Shown here: in pieces, positions 3,056 through 33,337 of the stretch
Position numbering within the stretch: the stretch's first letter is position 1
Layout: each line of letters begins with the position of its first letter
Origin: a virus
Strand: one strand, 5' to 3'
Length of the DNA: 33,410 nucleotides
Virus record (IMG/VR): IMGVR_UViG_3300021963_000016
Coordinates: 1-33,410 of that record
Position numbers and translations under genes: made by a program
Notes under the pieces: model-generated
The model's input: the letters and a program-made list of their open reading frames with translations, nothing else
Databases searched by the model: none
Told to the model about the DNA's origin: nothing

Positions 3056-3201
3056 TAAAAGAAATATTGAATCTGTTAATGTTAGATAATCATTACGGAC
3101 AAAGTGAAACAATAGAAATAGCTAAAGGTAAATATAAAAAACCAACAACTATAAAAGAAGCAATTAATCAAATAAAAAGACAATGGCAGACATTAAGGTA
3201 G
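3052..3201 (+). CDS. Small coupled ORF (49 aa), unknown function
   Basis: A 49-aa, Lys-rich, probably helical protein. Its ATG overlaps the previous stop as ATGA, and its TAG lies 19 bases inside the tape-measure gene (ATG 3183), so it sits in a continuous translational relay. In lambda-like phages the slot before the tape measure holds tail assembly chaperones, but here the chaperone pair is at 31595-32337, so I do not extend that name to this ORF. The coupling at both ends favours a real gene. No homology is recognised. Confidence 0.6.
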   Translation: MIKEILNLLMLDNHYGQSETIEIAKGKYKKPTTIKEAINQIKRQWQTLR

Positions 3202-5117
3202 TTAACTTACAGATTAACACAAACATAGATAACGCTTCTAAAGAGTTTGACGATTTAGCAAAATCAATTAAAGTAGTAGACAAAGCAGCTACTAATTTAG
3301 ATGCTACATTTGAAGAAGTATATGGCGACTTACAGCCATTAACAACAAGAATGGGTGAAGCTGAAGATAGGCTTTACGAATTAGCTTTAGCAGGTAAGCA
3401 AGGAACTCAAGAGTTTAAAGATTTATTGACTTCTGTAGGTAACTATAGAAAGGTACAAATACAGACAGATATGGTTGTGGATAATGCTGCAACTACATTG
3501 AGTCAAAAACTAACAGGTTCATTAAATGCTGCTGCTGGTGCTTTTAGTTTAGTACAAGGTTCTATGGCTTTATTCGGTGCTGAATCTGATGATGTAGAAC
3601 AAGCTATATTAAAAGTTCAATCTGCAATGGCTATTAGTCAAGGTGTAGAAACTATTGCTGAAGGTGCTAAAAGTGTACGTGCTTTAGGTACTGCAATTCA
3701 ATCTACTACTATATTTCAAAAAGCATCTTCTGCTGCTCAATATGTTTGGAATGCTGCTATGGCTGCCAATCCTATTGGTATCGTAGTAGCTTCTATCGCT
3801 GCTTTATTGGTTGGTGGGTATAAACTTATTAAATTCTTTAAAGATTCATCTGACGCAAATGAAAAAGCTGCTGCATCAACTATAAAAAATACAAATGCTT
3901 TAAAGCAACAAAGTATATCTGCTGCACAATCTTCTAATAAGTTAAAAACTTATAATGACCAACAATATGCAATGGCTCAAGCTTCAGGTGCATCAAGTGA
4001 AGAGTTAAGAAAGTTAGCTTTAAAACATAAAGAAGAAGAAGTTGCTTTAAATAAAAAAAATGCAATATTAGCACAAAGTACATTTTTAAGACAAAGAGAT
4101 ACTTTAGCTGCTTTAAAAAATTCCGAAGCAAGTGATGAGGTAATTGCTAACCAAGAAAAGTTAGTTCAAGAAACTTATAAGTCATTTAAAAAGCAGAATG
4201 AAATACTTTCTACTTCCTATAAAGAACGTGCTGCATTAAGAAACGCAAACGCAGTAGGTGAAGTGGCTGATGAAAAAGCAAAATTAGATGAAATAAGAGA
4301 AAAAAATAAAACTGCTTATGAAAAAAGGTTAGAAGACCAAAAAGAAGCAGCTAAAAAAGCTAAAGAAGAAAGAGAGAAAGCAGCACAAGAAGAACGTGAC
4401 TTTTTTATTGGAATAGAAAATGCTAATAGAGAAAGAAGAGTTTCTGAAGCTTTAGCTAAAGAAGAATCAAATGCAAAAGTTTTAGAAGCAGCAACTGCTG
4501 ATGCTGATAGATTAAATGCAGAAGATGAGAATAATAAAAAAAGAAGTCTTGATAATATAGCAAGAGAAGAGGCTGAAGCTAAAGCTAAAACTGCTATTAG
4601 AATGAAAGCTTTAGATGATTTGACAAGCATATTTGGTGCTGAATCAAGAGTAGGAAAAGCTTTTTTAATTGCTAAACAATTATTACAAGCTAAAGAATTG
4701 GCTATGGAGATTTCAAAAACCATAACTTTTTCTACACAAGCTGCTGCTCGTTCTACAGTTGCTGTAGCTGAAGGAACTGCTCAAACTGCTAAAATAGGTT
4801 TTCCGCAAAACATACCAATGTTAATAGGATATGCTGCACAAGCAGCAGGAATATTTGGAGCAATTCGTTCGGCTGTTAAAAGTGCAAAATCATCTGTAGC
4901 TTTACCATCAATGCCTTCTATATCTGAAGGTGGTATGTCAAGTTCACCTGCTTCAGTTGCTCCTACATTTAACGTAGTAGGTACTTCAGGACAAAATCAA
5001 ATAGCACAAAGTTTAGGCAATCAAGCACCTGTTAAAGCTTATGTAGTAAGTAACGATGTTACAACCGCACAAAGTTTAGATAGAAATATTGTGAACACAG
5101 CTACGATAGGTAACTAA
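3183..5117 (+). CDS. Tail tape measure protein
   Basis: This 644-aa protein sets tail length and is ejected with the DNA. The N-terminal half is helical with heptad-like patterning. A hydrophobic segment at about residues 195-218 ('NPIGIVVASIAALLVGGYKL') is the membrane-active helix typical of tape measures. Residues about 365-480 are a long charged Ala/Glu/Lys coiled coil. The end is Ser/Ala/Gly-rich with 'NVVGTSGQNQIAQSL', a common tail-end motif in Bacteroidota phages. At about 1.5 Å per residue a 644-aa ruler suggests a tail near 100 nm, which fits a siphovirus; that is inference. The reverse-strand open frames opposite it are shadows of the Ala/Lys-rich code. Confidence 0.85.
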   Translation: MADIKVVNLQINTNIDNASKEFDDLAKSIKVVDKAATNLDATFEEVYGDLQPLTTRMGEAEDRLYELALAGKQGTQEFKDLLTSVGNYRKVQIQTDMVVDNAATTLSQKLTGSLNAAAGAFSLVQGSMALFGAESDDVEQAILKVQSAMAISQGVETIAEGAKSVRALGTAIQSTTIFQKASSAAQYVWNAAMAANPIGIVVASIAALLVGGYKLIKFFKDSSDANEKAAASTIKNTNALKQQSISAAQSSNKLKTYNDQQYAMAQASGASSEELRKLALKHKEEEVALNKKNAILAQSTFLRQRDTLAALKNSEASDEVIANQEKLVQETYKSFKKQNEILSTSYKERAALRNANAVGEVADEKAKLDEIREKNKTAYEKRLEDQKEAAKKAKEEREKAAQEERDFFIGIENANRERRVSEALAKEESNAKVLEAATADADRLNAEDENNKKRSLDNIAREEAEAKAKTAIRMKALDDLTSIFGAESRVGKAFLIAKQLLQAKELAMEISKTITFSTQAAARSTVAVAEGTAQTAKIGFPQNIPMLIGYAAQAAGIFGAIRSAVKSAKSSVALPSMPSISEGGMSSSPASVAPTFNVVGTSGQNQIAQSLGNQAPVKAYVVSNDVTTAQSLDRNIVNTATIGN

Positions 5118-18422: not shown

Positions 18423-18558
18423 ATGAGAAACATACACGTATTACCAACAGAGAAACCGAGTAAACTATTCTACAATGTAGGAGGAGCTTTATTATTTACA
18501 GATTATGAAAATTATAACGGTGTTAATATCTGCATCACTTCTGATGAAGAAATTAAAG
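18423..18558 (+). repeat. Mosaic repeat block A, copy 1
   Basis: 136 bases that match 26127-26262 without gaps, with about nine differences by eye. It encodes the shared N-terminus of two paralogous early proteins. Confidence 0.9.
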
Positions 18559-19238
18559 TAGGAGATTATGTTATTAATTCTGCAGCTTCATATGTATTTC
18601 AACATTATTTTGCAGAAGGTAATCTTTATAAAGAATGCAAAAAAATCATCCTAACAACAGACCAAGACTTAATCAAAGATGGTGTACAAGCTATTGATGA
18701 TGATTTCCTTGAATGGTTTGTTAAGAATCCAAGTTGTGAGTTTGTTGAGATTGATAATAGACCAAAAGTATCTTCATTTGAAAAAGGTTTTATGATAGAC
18801 AATCCTAATTACAACAAAATCATCATTCCAAAAGAAGAAGCTAAACAAGAAGGTTACATTTGTCCACATACTAAATTACAATGTGATAATGAATGTTGTG
18901 TAAGTGCATCAGATTGCCATATAAAAACAACAATAGGTATTATATCAGAACCTAAACAAGAAACACTTGAAAACATTTTTAATTGGAAACCTATTTATGC
19001 AAGTTCACGCAAGCAAGAAACAATTGAACAAGCATCAGAATACTACGCACATAACTATTTTTATATGCACGTAACAAATGACTATAAAGCACTAAAACAG
19101 GGGTTTGAAGCAGGCGTTAAATGGCAACAAGAACAAGACAAGAATACGTATAGTGAAGATGATATTAGTACAGCAATTGCTATGTATTTAGAAAATAAAT
19201 CATTCTCTGAAATTATTAAACAACTTAAAAACAAATAA
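18423..19238 (+). CDS. Mosaic early protein with Cys/His cluster (271 aa)
   Basis: This is a 271-aa protein of unknown function. Residues 1-45 ('IHVLPTEKPSKLFYNVGGAL') and about 73-106 ('IILTTDQDLIKDGVQAIDDD') are almost identical, also as DNA, to the protein at 26127, while the segments between differ. A Cys/His cluster follows ('CPHTKLQCDNECCVSASDCHI', about 142-162 in outline), possibly zinc-binding. The C-terminal part has 'GFEAGVKWQQEQDKNTYSEDD' and ends QLKNK. The KWQQEQ module also appears in the gene at 19812 and in the remnant at 26010. The last codons belong to the 20-nt linker repeat. This looks like a gene built from exchangeable modules. Confidence 0.7.
   Translation: MRNIHVLPTEKPSKLFYNVGGALLFTDYENYNGVNICITSDEEIKVGDYVINSAASYVFQHYFAEGNLYKECKKIILTTDQDLIKDGVQAIDDDFLEWFVKNPSCEFVEIDNRPKVSSFEKGFMIDNPNYNKIIIPKEEAKQEGYICPHTKLQCDNECCVSASDCHIKTTIGIISEPKQETLENIFNWKPIYASSRKQETIEQASEYYAHNYFYMHVTNDYKALKQGFEAGVKWQQEQDKNTYSEDDISTAIAMYLENKSFSEIIKQLKNK
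18639..18739 (+). repeat. Mosaic repeat block B, copy 1
   Basis: 101 bases that match 26373-26473, with two differences by eye. Between blocks A and B the two genes diverge and differ by 30 nt in length, so the conserved blocks flank a replaced segment. Confidence 0.9.
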
Positions 19239-19241
19239 GAT

Positions 19242-19586
19242 ATGGAAAATTTAACATTAGGAACATCGCAAACTTACACTAACGACCCTATCAATAATTT
19301 AGAAACTACTACTAATAATTTTAACATAGCGCATACAAGTGCAACAACTGCTGGATATATGTGGACTAATCCTACAAGATTAGAAGTACGTGAATTATCA
19401 GATAGTATTGAGATTATTTACGAGGAAACATCATTTATGAATTTTACAATTTATCCTTCACCACCACCTGAAAAAAGATACTTTAAAATTGTATTTAGTT
19501 GTGTAGATGGTAAATGGAATAAATCTGAAAGAATATACGGAGAAAAAATTGAACGTGAAGAATATTTTGAATTTAAAAACAAATAA
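19242..19586 (+). CDS. Paralogous early protein, copy 1 (114 aa)
   Basis: This 114-aa protein has a counterpart at 26916. Shared parts are the start (MENL, GTSQTYTNDP), 'MWTNPTRL', 'DSIE.IYEETS' and 'PPEKRYFKI.FSCVDGKWNK' to the end 'EYFEF'. Residues about 17-38 are low-complexity Asn/Thr-rich and differ between the two. It is beta-rich, without a signal or membrane segment. Here the frame continues into the linker as FKNK; in the second copy it does not. Function is unknown. Confidence 0.7.
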   Translation: MENLTLGTSQTYTNDPINNLETTTNNFNIAHTSATTAGYMWTNPTRLEVRELSDSIEIIYEETSFMNFTIYPSPPPEKRYFKIVFSCVDGKWNKSERIYGEKIEREEYFEFKNK

Positions 19587-26126: not shown

Positions 26127-26262
26127 ATGAAAAACATACACGTATTACCAACAGAGAAACCAAGTAAACTATTCTACAATGTAGGAGGAGCTTTACTATT
26201 TACAAATTACGAAAACCATAACGGTGTTAACATCTACATCACTTCTGATGAAGAAATTAAAG
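26127..26262 (+). repeat. Mosaic repeat block A, copy 2
   Basis: Matches 18423-18558 without gaps, with about nine differences by eye. Most differences are silent or conservative, so both copies seem to be under selection. Confidence 0.9.
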
Positions 26263-26666
26263 AGGGGGATTGGTGCTTCTATGTTAATAGTATATATAAA
26301 GTATTAAGAATTAGCAGTAATAATAGGCCTATAATAAAAATGTCTGATGGTACATTTGAAATATCTTATTATAAAAAAATCATCCTAACAACAGACCAAG
26401 ACTTAATCAAAGATGGTGTACAAGCTATTGATGATGAGTTCCTTGAATGGTTTGTTAAGAATCCGAGTTGTGATGAGGTTAAGGTAAATAATTTATGTTA
26501 TGGTGCTTTAGGCGCATTTGCTGATGCAGGTTACAAAATCATCATTCCAAGAACAACTGAACAATTTAAAAAATCGGATTGTCAACATCAATTCATAAGA
26601 ACGGGTGATTCATTTGATTTGACTATTTACTGTAAAAAATGTGGTATAAACTATAAAAACAAATAA
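26127..26666 (+). CDS. Mosaic early protein, paralog of 18423 (179 aa)
   Basis: This 179-aa protein shares residues 1-45 and about 83-115 with the 271-aa protein at 18423, at near-identical DNA level, but the segment between and the C-terminal part differ. Its own C-terminus has 'DCQHQFIRTGDSFDLTIYCKKCGINYKNK', here in outline: C, H and a CxxC pair, like a small zinc ribbon. It ends in YKNK at a linker copy. The pair shows replacement of central and C-terminal modules around a conserved frame. Function is unknown. Confidence 0.7.
   Translation: MKNIHVLPTEKPSKLFYNVGGALLFTNYENHNGVNIYITSDEEIKEGDWCFYVNSIYKVLRISSNNRPIIKMSDGTFEISYYKKIILTTDQDLIKDGVQAIDDEFLEWFVKNPSCDEVKVNNLCYGALGAFADAGYKIIIPRTTEQFKKSDCQHQFIRTGDSFDLTIYCKKCGINYKNK
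26373..26473 (+). repeat. Mosaic repeat block B, copy 2
   Basis: Matches 18639-18739 with two differences. It is closer to its partner than block A, which fits more recent exchange or conversion. Confidence 0.9.
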
Positions 26667-26667
26667 G

Positions 26668-26793
26668 ATGATATTAGAAACAATTTTAGAGACGTCATAC
26701 TATATTATAGCAACATTAATAACAACAGCAATAGTAATAGCTTTAGTTAGGTTAATAATAGAATTAATAAAAGAAACATTTAAAAACAAATAA
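26668..26793 (+). CDS. Membrane peptide in linker cluster (41 aa)
   Basis: This 41-aa peptide has a long hydrophobic helix (about 11-33, 'YYIIATLITTAIVIALVRLI') between an acidic start and the tail ETFKNK. The ATG follows the upstream stop by one base (TAAGATG). It begins and ends in linker copies. One inner-membrane span is expected. Function is unknown. Confidence 0.6.
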   Translation: MILETILETSYYIIATLITTAIVIALVRLIIELIKETFKNK

Positions 26794-26796
26794 GAT

Positions 26797-26883
26797 ATGA
26801 CAAGTATTATAAGTGGTTTTTTAGGAATTATTGTAGGATTAATTATAGTTTTACTTATTGCTCATAAATTTAAAAACAAATAA
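26797..26883 (+). CDS. 28-aa membrane peptide in linker cluster
   Basis: This 28-aa peptide (MTSIISGFLGIIVGLIIVLL...) is one hydrophobic helix with a GxxxG-like pattern and a basic tail KFKNK. It starts in an exact linker and ends in a half linker. It could oligomerise in the membrane. It may be a real microprotein or just a frame bounded by linkers. Confidence 0.5.
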   Translation: MTSIISGFLGIIVGLIIVLLIAHKFKNK

Positions 26884-26915
26884 CCCCGATTGCAAGGATA
26901 AGTGCTACAAAAATT

Positions 26916-27236
26916 ATGGAAAATTTAACATCAGGAACATCACAAACTTACACAAATGACCCATTAATTACTACAGGAACAGTATATACAGGAACAGGCG
27001 GAACAACTGTTGGGTTTATGTGGACTAATCCTACAAGATTACAAGTAAATGAACGAATAGATAGTATCGAGATGATTTATGAAGAAACATCACTTGCAAC
27101 TTTAACTATCCATTTTTCCCAACCACCTGAAAAAAGATACTTTAAAATTATATTTAGTTGTGTAGATGGTAAATGGAATAAGTCTGAAAGGATTTATGGA
27201 AAAAAAATTGAACATCAAGAATATTTTGAATTTTAA
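26916..27236 (+). CDS. Paralogous early protein, copy 2 (106 aa)
   Basis: This 106-aa counterpart of 19242 has the same start (MENLT-GTSQTYTNDP), a different Thr/Gly-rich insert (about 17-32), then 'MWTNPTRLQV', 'DSIEMIYEETS' and 'CVDGKWNKSERIYG'. It ends at EYFEF because one extra T at 27231-27234 creates an early TAA. The linker DNA behind it is nevertheless perfect. Upstream (26884-26915) a short stretch reads DCKDKCYKN in one frame, like the KCYYK part of the protein at 29108, perhaps a trace of a lost gene. Confidence 0.7.
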   Translation: MENLTSGTSQTYTNDPLITTGTVYTGTGGTTVGFMWTNPTRLQVNERIDSIEMIYEETSLATLTIHFSQPPEKRYFKIIFSCVDGKWNKSERIYGKKIEHQEYFEF

Positions 27237-29692: not shown

Positions 29693-29986
29693 ATGGAAGA
29701 TAAAAGAAGAAACAACGGTGGTCATAAAACTGCAGGTAGAAAATCTAAAGTTGAAGAACAAAAGGTTAACAATATTTTTATCCAAGCATTAAAGGAATTA
29801 TACAATAAAGAAACTGAAGATGAAACAAAGATTGCTTTTGTCAAAGGAACTTTAATGGAATCACAACGTGGACAATTATTTATTGCTGAACATATATTCG
29901 GCAAACCAAAAGAAATAGTTGAAACTACTCACAATATTAATGACTTCAATATAAAAGATATATTCAAAATTGATAAGTCTAAATAA
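29693..29986 (+). CDS. Small terminase subunit candidate
   Basis: This 97-aa protein begins MEDKRRNNGGHKTAGRKSKVE..., where 'NGGH.TAGRKSK.EE' is the usual start of the protein encoded before terminase in Bacteroidota phages. The middle is helical, and the end contains 'IAEHIFGKPKEIVETTHNIN'. DNA recognition before packaging is the likely role. It lacks a full helix-turn-helix, as in other short members. It overlaps the large terminase start by 17 bases, as expected for a pair. Confidence 0.75.
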   Translation: MEDKRRNNGGHKTAGRKSKVEEQKVNNIFIQALKELYNKETEDETKIAFVKGTLMESQRGQLFIAEHIFGKPKEIVETTHNINDFNIKDIFKIDKSK

Positions 29987-31175
29987 CAAATATAATCTAC
30001 TTGGTTCAGATAGTAGGTACTTTGTAATAACAGGCGGAAGGGGTTCAGGGAAATCATATTCTTTGAACTCGTTTCTGCTATTGTTAACTTATGAAGTAGG
30101 ACACGTGATACTATTTACACGTTACACTTTGACATCTGCAAATGTATCTATCATTCCTGAATTTATTGATAAGATAGAATCAGCTGATTTAAGCAACGAT
30201 TTTTATATTACCAAAGATGAGATAGTAAATCTAAAAACAGGGTCTAAAATCATCTTTAAAGGTATTAAAACGAGTAGTGGTACACAGACTGCATCACTTA
30301 AATCTTTAGCAGGTGTTACTACTTGGGTATTGGATGAAGCTGAAGAACTAACAGACGAAGAAGTATTTGAAAAGATAGACTTCAGTATTAGAACCAAAGG
30401 TGTACAGAATAGAGTGCTACTTGTATTGAATCCTGCAACAAAAGAACACTTCATATATAAGAAGTTCTTTGAAGATAAAGGAATCCAAGCAGGAAGCAAT
30501 TTAGTTAAAGGTGATACTACTTACATACACACAACGTATTTAGATAACATAGATAACCTATCAGAATCTTTTATTAGTCAAATAGAAAACATTAAACAAA
30601 GACGACCTGAAAAGTACAAGCATCAAATATTAGGTGGATGGTTAGATAAAGCTGAAGGTGTAATATTTAACAATTGGACAATAGGAGAATACAAACAAGT
30701 AGGTGCTTCTGCATTTGGTCAGGATTTTGGTTTTAGTAATGACCCAACTACATTAGTAGAATGTAATATAGATACTGCTAACAAGAAGATATACATCAAT
30801 GAAAGATATTATCTACCCGCATTAACTACATCACAGATTTACCAGTTAAATAAACAGCATTGTTTAGATAGTTTAATTGTAGCTGATAGTGCTGAACCAA
30901 GATTGATTTCTGAATTACAAACTGCAGGATTGAATATAGTACCTGCAATTAAAGGTCAAGGTTCTGTAACATTTGGAATAGCTTTGTTACAAGATTATGA
31001 TTTAATAATTACACCTGAATCTATTAATTTAATCAGGGAACTAAATAACTATTGCTGGTTAGAAAAGAAATCTAATACACCTATAGACAACCATAATCAC
31101 TTGATAGATGCTTTAAGGTACATTGTATCATATCAGTTAGAGAATCCAAACAAAGGAACTTATTACGTCTATTAA
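29970..31175 (+). CDS. terL: Large terminase subunit (PBSX type)
   Basis: This 401-aa motor-nuclease packages DNA. The ATPase has Walker A 'GGRGSGKS' (22-29), Walker B 'TWVLDE' (118-123) and the coupling motif 'LLVLNPATKEH' (150-160). The nuclease has D252 (QDFGFSNDP), D306 (VADSAEP) and D380 (HLIDALRY). The only available start before Walker A is TTG at 29970: the frame has a TAA at 29952 and no ATG. The start overlaps the small subunit by 17 bases, so initiation probably depends on coupling. The length is slightly short for the family but all motifs are present. PBSX-type terminases often use headful packaging. Confidence 0.93.
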   Translation: MISLNNKYNLLGSDSRYFVITGGRGSGKSYSLNSFLLLLTYEVGHVILFTRYTLTSANVSIIPEFIDKIESADLSNDFYITKDEIVNLKTGSKIIFKGIKTSSGTQTASLKSLAGVTTWVLDEAEELTDEEVFEKIDFSIRTKGVQNRVLLVLNPATKEHFIYKKFFEDKGIQAGSNLVKGDTTYIHTTYLDNIDNLSESFISQIENIKQRRPEKYKHQILGGWLDKAEGVIFNNWTIGEYKQVGASAFGQDFGFSNDPTTLVECNIDTANKKIYINERYYLPALTTSQIYQLNKQHCLDSLIVADSAEPRLISELQTAGLNIVPAIKGQGSVTFGIALLQDYDLIITPESINLIRELNNYCWLEKKSNTPIDNHNHLIDALRYIVSYQLENPNKGTYYVY

Positions 31176-31379: not shown

Positions 31380-31493
31380 ATGGAATACTACGACTATCAA
31401 AACGAATATCCTGAAAACGAATGCAGGTATTGCGGTGAAGCTTGTGAAAAAACATATTGCGATAAGCAATGTGAACGAGCAGATGAAGATTAA
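31380..31493 (+). CDS. 37-aa zinc-ribbon-like protein
   Basis: This 37-aa acidic protein has five Cys: 'CRYCGEAC' (C15, C18, C22) and 'YCDKQCER' (C27, C31), the CxxCG...YC...C pattern of tiny zinc ribbons. It has its own promoter and terminator, so it is a separate one-gene unit inside the packaging region, like the Cys-rich gene at 25644. It is probably an early regulator inserted among late genes; its target is unknown. Confidence 0.75.
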   Translation: MEYYDYQNEYPENECRYCGEACEKTYCDKQCERADED

Positions 31494-31594: not shown

Positions 31595-32272
31595 ATGAAA
31601 ATAGAATTAACAATTCCAACAACGCTAAACGATATTAAACTTGCCCAGTATCAAAAGTTTTTATCTATAGCAAAAGACAATGAAGAAAGTGAATTCTTGC
31701 AGCAGAAAATGGTGCAAATATTTTGTGGTATAGATTTAAAAGATGTAGCACAAATTAGATATAAGGATGTAGCAGAAATTACTGCAAACATTAATAATCT
31801 ATTCACTAAAGAAAATAAGTTAATACAACGCTTTAAAATGGGTGGAGTAGAGTTTGGATTCATACCTAACCTTGATGAAATGTCTACAGGTGAATATATG
31901 GATTTAGATAATTATATTACTGATTGGGACACTATGCATAATGCAATGGCTGTATTATATAGACCAATTACAAATAAGTTAGGCAACAAATACCAAATAG
32001 AAGAATACAAAGGTTCTATAACGTATGCTGATGTAATGAGACACGCACCATTAGATGTAGTATTAGGTGCTATGGTTTTTTTTTACAATTTAGGGAACGA
32101 CTTATTGAAAAGTACGATAGACTATTTGGAGGGGAATCAGGAAGTGCAGAATATTCTGAACAAGCACAATTTGGAAAACGTTGGGGATGGTATTCAAGTA
32201 TCTATGCTCTTGCTCAAGGAGACGTTAGAAGATTTGATGAAGTTTCCAAGTTACCAATCACACAAAGTTTAA
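31595..32272 (+). CDS. Tail assembly chaperone, zero-frame product (G-type)
   Basis: This 225-aa protein matches a family I know from Bacteroidota phages: 'IPTTLNDIKLAQYQKFL' (about 7-23), 'QRFKMGGVEFGFIPNLDEMSTGEYMDLDNYI' in outline (about 77-108), 'HNAMAVLYRPITNK' and 'VVLGAMVFFYNLGND'. It should bind the tape measure before tail assembly. Codons 'GTT TTT TTT TAC' at 32075-32086 contain the slippery heptamer T TTT TTT (32077-32083), where a -1 shift would enter the open frame that runs to 32337. Its location next to terminase rather than next to the tape measure is unusual compared with lambda. Confidence 0.75.
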   Translation: MKIELTIPTTLNDIKLAQYQKFLSIAKDNEESEFLQQKMVQIFCGIDLKDVAQIRYKDVAEITANINNLFTKENKLIQRFKMGGVEFGFIPNLDEMSTGEYMDLDNYITDWDTMHNAMAVLYRPITNKLGNKYQIEEYKGSITYADVMRHAPLDVVLGAMVFFYNLGNDLLKSTIDYLEGNQEVQNILNKHNLENVGDGIQVSMLLLKETLEDLMKFPSYQSHKV

Positions 32273-32337
32273 CTTGGTTGACCTTTGAAAAAGAGAAAAC
32301 AGAAATAGAAATGAAATTAATAAATAAGAATAAATAA
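32083..32337 (+). CDS. Tail assembly chaperone -1 frame extension (T-type)
   Basis: This frame is open from 32032 to a TAA at 32335-32337 but has no ATG, GTG or TTG start until near its end. It encodes 'LIEKYDRLFGG', 'FGKRWGWYSSIYALAQGD', 'RRFDEVSKLPITQSLTWLTF' and 'EKEKTEIE', a conserved phage domain. I give the first codon after a -1 slip at T TTT TTT (32077-32083), so the fusion would read ...GAMVFF-LQFRERLIEKYD. This is the G/GT design of lambda-type tail chaperones. The exact slip point is inferred. The stop shares a base with the next ATG (TAATG). Confidence 0.75.
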   Translation, partial: LQFRERLIEKYDRLFGGESGSAEYSEQAQFGKRWGWYSSIYALAQGDVRRFDEVSKLPITQSLTWLTFEKEKTEIEMKLINKNK

Positions 32338-32795
32338 TGAAAGGATTTTACGAAATAAGCCAAGCAATTAAAAACCAACTGGATGATGATGCTTTTGTAA
32401 ATACTGTTACCATTGGTGATATATTTAATATTGACTTAAACAAGCAAACGATATTCCCTTTGTCACATATAATGATTAATTCAGCAAACTATAATGGAAA
32501 AACTTTCAATTATAACGTTTCTGTTTTGTGTATGGATATAGTAGATGAATCAAAAGAAGCTACTACTGATTTGTTTAGAGGTAATGACAACGAGCAAGAT
32601 GTATTACATACACAAGAAATGGTTGCAAGAAGATTACTTGAAATGTTAAATAGAGGTGACTTATATGATGATGGTTTTCAATTAACTAATAATTCAGCTT
32701 CTATAGAATACTTTGTAGACAGATTTGAAAATAAGATTGCTGGAGTTACTATGACATTTGACGTGATGACTTTTAACGATATGACTATCTGCTAA
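32337..32795 (+). CDS. Putative tail completion/terminator protein (152 aa)
   Basis: This 152-aa protein has a family pattern common in Bacteroidota phages: 'FPLSHIMINSANYNGKTFNY' (about 41-60), 'VLCMDIVDESKEATTDLFRG', 'NDNEQDVLHTQEMVARRLLE' and 'FENKIAGVTMTFDVMTFNDM' near the end. Its size and mixed alpha/beta content suit a tail terminator, the ring that joins tail to head. It lies between the chaperone and a gp10-like protein, all linked by TAATG overlaps. The function is inferred from order. Confidence 0.65.
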   Translation: MKGFYEISQAIKNQLDDDAFVNTVTIGDIFNIDLNKQTIFPLSHIMINSANYNGKTFNYNVSVLCMDIVDESKEATTDLFRGNDNEQDVLHTQEMVARRLLEMLNRGDLYDDGFQLTNNSASIEYFVDRFENKIAGVTMTFDVMTFNDMTIC

Positions 32796-33337
32796 TGGCT
32801 AAAGAATTACAAAATGTCAATGATGTTTTAAAACGCTTTAGGGATTATGTGATTCAACAATCAAGAAGTAATTTATCTAAAGGCGGTAAGAACGTTTCTA
32901 AAGAACTATATAATAGTATAAAGGGAGAAATACTTACAGAAGATAATTATTCAATTGTTGGCTTTTCTATGGCTGAATATGGACAATTCCAAGACCAAGG
33001 GGTTCGTGGTAAATCAAGTTCAGCAAAAGCACCTAAAAGTCCTTTTAGATTTGGTACTGGTTCAGGTAAAAAAGGTGGTTTAACTAAAAGTATATTAAAA
33101 TGGGTACAAGCGAAAGGTTTTCAATTCCGAAACAAAGAGAGTGGGAAGTTTATGAGTTATCAGCAGACAGGGTATCTTATATCTCGAAGTATTTTTCACA
33201 AAGGAATTAAACCAAGTTTGTTTTTTACTAAACCATTTGAAGCAGGTTATAAGAAATACATAGATACTGATTTAATGAAAGCTTTTGGTCAAGATATAGA
33301 AACAATGGTAGATTATAATTTAAAAGATATAAAATGA
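32795..33337 (+). CDS. HK97 gp10-like tail-completion protein (180 aa)
   Basis: This 180-aa protein resembles gp10-type or minor tail-completion proteins. The N-terminal helix is 'VNDVLKRFRDYVIQQSRSNL', then 'SKELYNSIKGEI', 'FSMAEYGQFQDQGVRGKSSS' (about 58-77), a Gly/Lys-rich loop, 'GYLISRSIFHKGIKPSLFFT' and a C-terminal 'KPFEAGYKKY'. The order 'EYG.F.D.GV.G' and 'I...GI.P..FF..PF' is typical. Its end is repeated at 1-54 because of the circular overlap, and its stop overlaps the next ATG. Confidence 0.75.
   Translation: MAKELQNVNDVLKRFRDYVIQQSRSNLSKGGKNVSKELYNSIKGEILTEDNYSIVGFSMAEYGQFQDQGVRGKSSSAKAPKSPFRFGTGSGKKGGLTKSILKWVQAKGFQFRNKESGKFMSYQQTGYLISRSIFHKGIKPSLFFTKPFEAGYKKYIDTDLMKAFGQDIETMVDYNLKDIK

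Follow-up and report, generated by a model that had tools for sequence, protein, structure and literature searches.

A tail-cluster gene of a phage contig very likely encodes two proteins through a programmed -1 frame change at a run of nine Ts, judging from the sequences of its relatives. In our preferred reading, to which we give a probability of roughly 60%, this frame change yields two proteins that act in tail assembly in the manner of lambda gpG/gpGT, the ribosome being the likeliest machine to slip. The window, i.e. the whole stretch of 33,410 nucleotides that was analysed (IMG/VR virus record IMGVR_UViG_3300021963_000016), is a circular phage contig with a 127-bp end repeat and 30% G+C. 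The gene comprises the following features:

31595 to 32272, plus strand: zero-frame open reading frame, short product of 225 aa (phrog_32199 match, E 4.8e-19)
31595 to 32083, plus strand: shared N-terminal domain of 163 aa, present in both products (alignments; AF2 model; remote homolog 6H gp10)
32076 to 32084, plus strand: T9 homopolymer (9 or 10 Ts in every intact relative)
32077 to 32083, plus strand: in-frame slippery heptamer T_TTT_TTT (synonymous codons frozen)
32084 to 32272, plus strand: alternative C-terminus in the zero frame, 62 aa whose codons are also read in the -1 frame (dual coding; selection analysis)
32032 to 32337, plus strand: -1 open frame (no ATG, GTG or TTG until 32311)
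32083 to 32337, plus strand: C-terminal domain of 84 aa which the -1 frame would give to the long product past the slip, predicted to consist of helices only (alignments; AF2 pLDDT 76)

The zero-frame codons at the T run are GTT (at 32075), TTT, TTT and TAC, and this codon register, read from the sequence, confirms both the coordinates and the in-frame heptamer given in an earlier note on this DNA. Without a slip, the predicted product has 163 + 62 = 225 aa; after a slip of one base, re-reading from 32083 enters the open frame directly, as the note had proposed, and a product of 163 + 84 = 247 aa is predicted. The note had put the exchange at about 63 residues for about 84, of which the second figure is right and the first should be 62. 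Its statement that the -1 frame has no ATG, GTG or TTG start is true up to 32311, where the first such codon, an ATG, stands near the stop; the only common alternative starts before this position are ATT and ATC codons.

Relatives were gathered by scanning IMG/VR and GTDB genomes, which provided several hundred loci from virus records, isolates and MAGs. The same -1 arrangement was observed in 365 of 368 distinct relatives, with the -1 domain lying in the -1 frame behind T9 or T10 in 289 of 291 distinct junctions and in 76 of 77 further ones. Run length is 9 or 10 in all 365 intact -1 cases, none of which carries both parts in a single frame, and no T run shorter than 9 was found among the 368 distinct sequences. 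This comparison of the T run and the overlap in related phages had been suggested as a check, and the central claim behind it, that a -1 frame change at the T run is the sole way into the -1 domain, holds in every intact relative, with the synonymous sites of the run frozen. The three exceptions have an upstream indel (L044), a truncated contig (L061) or T9 in a clade that has T10 (L478). In L478, where the run lies near the end of the zero-frame gene, T9 breaks the zero frame two codons further on; the contig was either misassembled here or carries a natural variant of the run length.

The heptamer is of the X_XXY_YYZ type, stands in the right frame and is conserved at its synonymous sites. 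Both Phe codons of the run are TTT in all 155 distinct sequences (elsewhere in the domain, 30% are TTC), the preceding Val is GTT in 140 of 140 (33% GTT elsewhere), and the run is unchanged across a tree of 68 sequences. The codon registers at the run differ between relatives (V-FF-Y, F-FF-Y, L-FF-L and R-FFF-V), and the residues FFL.FR right at the slip are invariant or nearly so.

Searching phage records by tblastn matched only the Nonlabens phages P12024L and P12024S, with 31% identity in the shared domain and 28% in the -1 domain, which are annotated there as separate hypothetical genes. T9 is kept in P12024L despite a protein identity of about 30% (27-31% for the Nonlabens phages). When 395 genomes of the phylum were searched, the only match was the one already known. 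A marine member of the family (L216, 4486-5264) is located on a contig of a MAG labelled Euryarchaeota, possibly a mis-binned phage contig.

An artefactual origin of the T run, by sequencing or assembly error or by decay of the gene, is extremely improbable and was refuted by the comparison of relatives: homopolymers are error-prone and gp10 of Flavobacterium phage 6H looks split relative to its sisters, but an equal run length is observed in hundreds of independent assemblies and in an isolate genome, and both frames are under selection. The 6H protein belongs to phrog_25418 (Flavobacterium phages 6H and FPSV-F7), a remote homolog of the shared domain (6H gp10; hhalign 88%, E 3e-6) that is likewise encoded upstream of the tape measure gene; this family differs in forming one uninterrupted reading frame of ~293 aa in FPSV-F7, and no alignment was obtained between its C-terminal part and the -1 domain. 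As a further case of frameshifting 6H was rejected. Its gp10 (L302, 10047-10927) shows frame changes relative to FPSV-F7, 23T and 2A, each of which has one 293-aa reading frame over both parts, and these breaks are probably sequencing indels in the 6H record.

It is also very unlikely that the -1 domain is a separate product, made without fusion from a non-canonical or re-initiation start of its own, and as the general case this was rejected, most relatives having no usable start before the core of the domain. ATT codons do occur in the -1 frame of the window, and in P12024L the domain is annotated as a gene, its internal ATG overlapping the zero-frame stop as TAATG. Against this, most relatives lack any ATG, GTG or TTG ahead of the core, FFL.FR directly at the slip is invariant or nearly so, the synonymous sites of the run are frozen, and the Nonlabens ATG is placed differently in its relative L153. 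Relatives that encode the domain as a gene apart, starting at an ATG of its own, were what the earlier note had named as counting against a frameshift, and P12024L_41 (L001, 4085-4252) is indeed annotated in this way; its ATG, however, lies inside the -1 domain and is preceded by T9 and 28 conserved residues. Since the conserved domain starts 28 codons earlier, at T9, the annotation of P12024L_41 is probably too short.

In order to compare the two C-terminal ends, changes were counted by their effect in each frame on the 68-sequence tree and rates were expressed relative to the doubly silent class. In the overlap, from the run to the zero-frame stop, the zero-frame dN/dS given a -1-synonymous change was 0.18 (0.11-0.27), as compared to 0.73 (0.51-1.72) for the same class of changes downstream of the zero-frame stop, which served as control region; the doubly silent class amounts to 16 events, so that absolute ratios are rough, the contrast with the control region being clear. 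The -1 frame gave a dN/dS of 0.13 (0.08-0.19) for zero-frame-silent changes, to be read as roughly for the same reason. None of the -1-synonymous changes in the overlap created a zero-frame stop, as compared to 17 past it, and a pairwise version of the count agrees with the tree-based one. Synonymous shuffling within sequences, applied to the openness of the zero frame, gave P values from 0.001 to 0.54 by clade and was too weak alone, hence the use of tree-based rates. Both post-slip ends are under purifying selection. The gene thus contains some 62 codons of dual coding and not a lambda-style extension. Tail length is not universal, as zero-frame tails range from 16 to 84 codons by clade.

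The neighbouring genes show a conserved arrangement:

29970 to 31175, plus strand: terminase large subunit, upstream synteny anchor (synteny)
32337 to 32795, plus strand: next gene, 152 aa, whose ATG overlaps the -1 frame stop (TAATG, 32335-32341)
32795 to 33337, plus strand: 180-aa gene of the same cluster (downstream position kept in relatives)
3183 to 5117, plus strand: probable tail tape measure gene (phrog_8462, E 9.8e-6), ~4.4 kb downstream on the circular map

In 261 of 277 relatives (94%), the next gene begins with an ATG that overlaps or abuts the region of the -1 stop; in the window, this ATG comes some 65 bases after the zero-frame stop. This tie between the next gene and the -1 stop supports translation of the -1 frame, and translation of the next gene may be coupled to, or dependent on, ribosomes reading it. 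The order terminase large subunit, T-run gene, 152 aa, 180 aa, 352 aa and 648 aa is shared by relatives and by the Nonlabens phages, with the tape measure gene farther downstream; in the window, four genes intervene.

Two other regions of the window were recorded separately. Between the terminase and the frameshift gene, at 31380-31493, there is a short reading frame rich in cysteine (MEYYDYQNEYPENECRYCGEACEKTYCDKQCERADED). Two neighbouring genes are present twice, at 18423-19586 and 26127-27236: the proteins at 18423 and 26127 have their N-terminal part in common (IHVLPTEKPSKLFYNVGGALLFT), and the proteins at 19242 and 26916 resemble each other (MENLT.GTSQTYTNDP).

From these data we infer how the gene would be expressed. 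Ordinary decoding would give the 225-aa protein, composed of the 163-residue shared domain and the 62-residue zero-frame tail, and a fraction of decoding events would slip back one base on T_TTT_TTT and give the 247-aa protein, in which this tail is swapped for the 84-residue helical domain; both forms would be produced and used. The likeliest slipping machine would be the ribosome on U_UUU_UUU, with RNA polymerase on T9 as a close second, and we favour the ribosome modestly. The consensus fold of the sequence following the run contains 0 pairs and single-sequence z-scores range from -1.6 to +1.1 (pseudoknots being outside these folds), and an Rfam search gave no match. A stimulatory RNA element is common in -1 ribosomal frameshifting, albeit not obligatory. 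The heptamer itself would be of limited strength, U_UUU_UUU being a modest ribosomal shift site in E. coli, weaker than A_AAA_AAG (PMC5009743).

The same two products would arise by programmed transcriptional slippage, if RNA polymerase added an extra U on T9 in some of the mRNAs. We consider this less probable but a real prospect: the length of the run, the avoidance of A/T runs and the absence of an RNA structure from the folds make polymerase slippage a serious rival. The run keeps its minimum of nine in all 368 distinct sequences irrespective of codon register, and bacterial RNA polymerase slips efficiently once an A/T run reaches nine bases, a length that many genomes select against (PMC5009743, PMC1088944). 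Among 1,283 other non-redundant reading frames of the fetched contigs (918 kb), T runs of at least 9 occur at just 3 places, with ~11 expected, and A runs occur at 0.71 (A8), 0.23 (A9) and 0.07 (A10 or longer) of expectation; in these frames the avoidance of runs of 7-8 bases is frame-independent. Furthermore, the RNA stimulator that was searched for by folding was not found. Runs of about nine A or T bases within coding sequences that give access to two frames are similarly known from Thermus dnaX, Shigella mxiE and some IS transposases (PMC1088944, PMC5009743), from which the present case differs in that the gene is one of phage morphogenesis and its run also holds a ribosomal slip heptamer.

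The length of the run is nevertheless not decisive. The outer two Ts are explicable by hydrophobic residues in the zero frame together with Leu or Phe at position 3 of the -1 frame; coding constraints in both frames can therefore hold them without any nine-base threshold, and T9 as opposed to T7 was rejected as proof of polymerase slippage. An early stop in the third frame, moreover, is not consistent over all clades, and the frameshifts known so far in tail chaperone genes are ribosomal (PMC5009743).

As to the function of the two proteins, the likeliest use would be a G/GT-like tail assembly, with the shared domain as the chaperone and an extra binding domain contributed by the long form, the minor one. 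The two proteins are putative tail assembly chaperones, a role that the G/GT-like logic and the place in the tail gene cluster make likely. As with lambda gpG/gpGT, a single start would give two products with a common N-terminal part by a -1 slip on an in-frame heptamer, and the gene belongs to the tail gene cluster and precedes the tape measure gene. The differences are considerable. The slip site is GGGAAAG in lambda and T_TTT_TTT inside T9 in the window; lambda G has 5 codons past the slip, whereas the window has 62 zero-frame codons under selection; and the long form of lambda GT is an extension, with a slip near the gene end, whereas that of the window would be an alternative end. The lambda-type gene is also followed immediately by the tape measure gene, which in the window is ~4.4 kb and four genes away. 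By analogy, the family would work like G/GT, not being a proven member of it; two defining features of the lambda pair are absent.

Homology searches bear on the same question. The shared domain matches phrog_32199, a family of unknown function that 38 of 38 relatives also match. In the Nonlabens phages the two parts fall into phrog_32199 (shared domain) and phrog_38404 (-1 domain), both of unknown function and listed as two families with no link to each other. The earlier note had called the -1 domain recognisable, which is true through uncharacterised relatives only, as the copy in the window has no Pfam, NCBIfam or PHROG match. Profile searches against Pfam, NCBIfam and PDB gave no usable match to a named family, and homology with lambda G and T was not detectable by hhalign (probabilities below 1%). 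AF2 modelled the shared domain with good confidence (mostly pLDDT 76-94; low in the zero-frame tail past residue 180) and the -1 domain as helical with moderate confidence (pLDDT 76). Comparison of both models with PDB structures gave Z below 3, which is not evidence for a new fold. Foldseek searches of viral models returned numerous uncharacterised proteins that are about as long, together with weak matches to two proteins that bear the name tail assembly chaperone or tail assembly protein (E 0.15 and 0.63). Seven longer uncharacterised matches fit both models, a lead which suggests that single-reading-frame fusions of both domains may exist elsewhere.

The tail-chaperone interpretation of the earlier note accordingly stands for the two-product -1 logic and the place in the tail cluster, and does not extend to a family match, an alignment with lambda or adjacency to the tape measure gene. 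It is possible, though on the doubtful side, that the frame change is real and the protein is another two-form tail or neck assembly factor: the tape measure gene does not adjoin, the gene comes directly after the terminase, no chaperone family match was found, and the remote Duneviridae relatives are single reading frames close to the genes for portal and adaptor, and these relatives, too, precede the tape measure gene. The weak Foldseek matches mentioned above argue against such a factor, as does a two-product -1 logic within a tail gene cluster, which is a hallmark of tail chaperones.

In the open literature (few subscription papers were covered, which makes this weak evidence of absence), our searches turned up neither this gene family, nor a Flavobacterium phage with a frameshifted tail chaperone, nor a tail chaperone made by transcriptional slippage, and we found little on ribosomal or polymerase slippage in Bacteroidota. 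It is rather unlikely that, in a large family of aquatic Flavobacteriia-type phages, the two forms of a tail chaperone arise when RNA polymerase slips on T9, with two dual-coded and separately selected C-termini; if true, a ratio in phage morphogenesis would be set in transcription instead of translation. The fixed run length of 9-10 allows a clean bench test of ribosomal versus polymerase slippage in Bacteroidota. Two PHROG families of unknown function are joined here as one two-product gene, and hundreds of phage contigs can have the annotation of such genes corrected. Dual coding over such a length, with selection on both C-terminal ends, departs from the lambda model and indicates that the short form's own tail matters.
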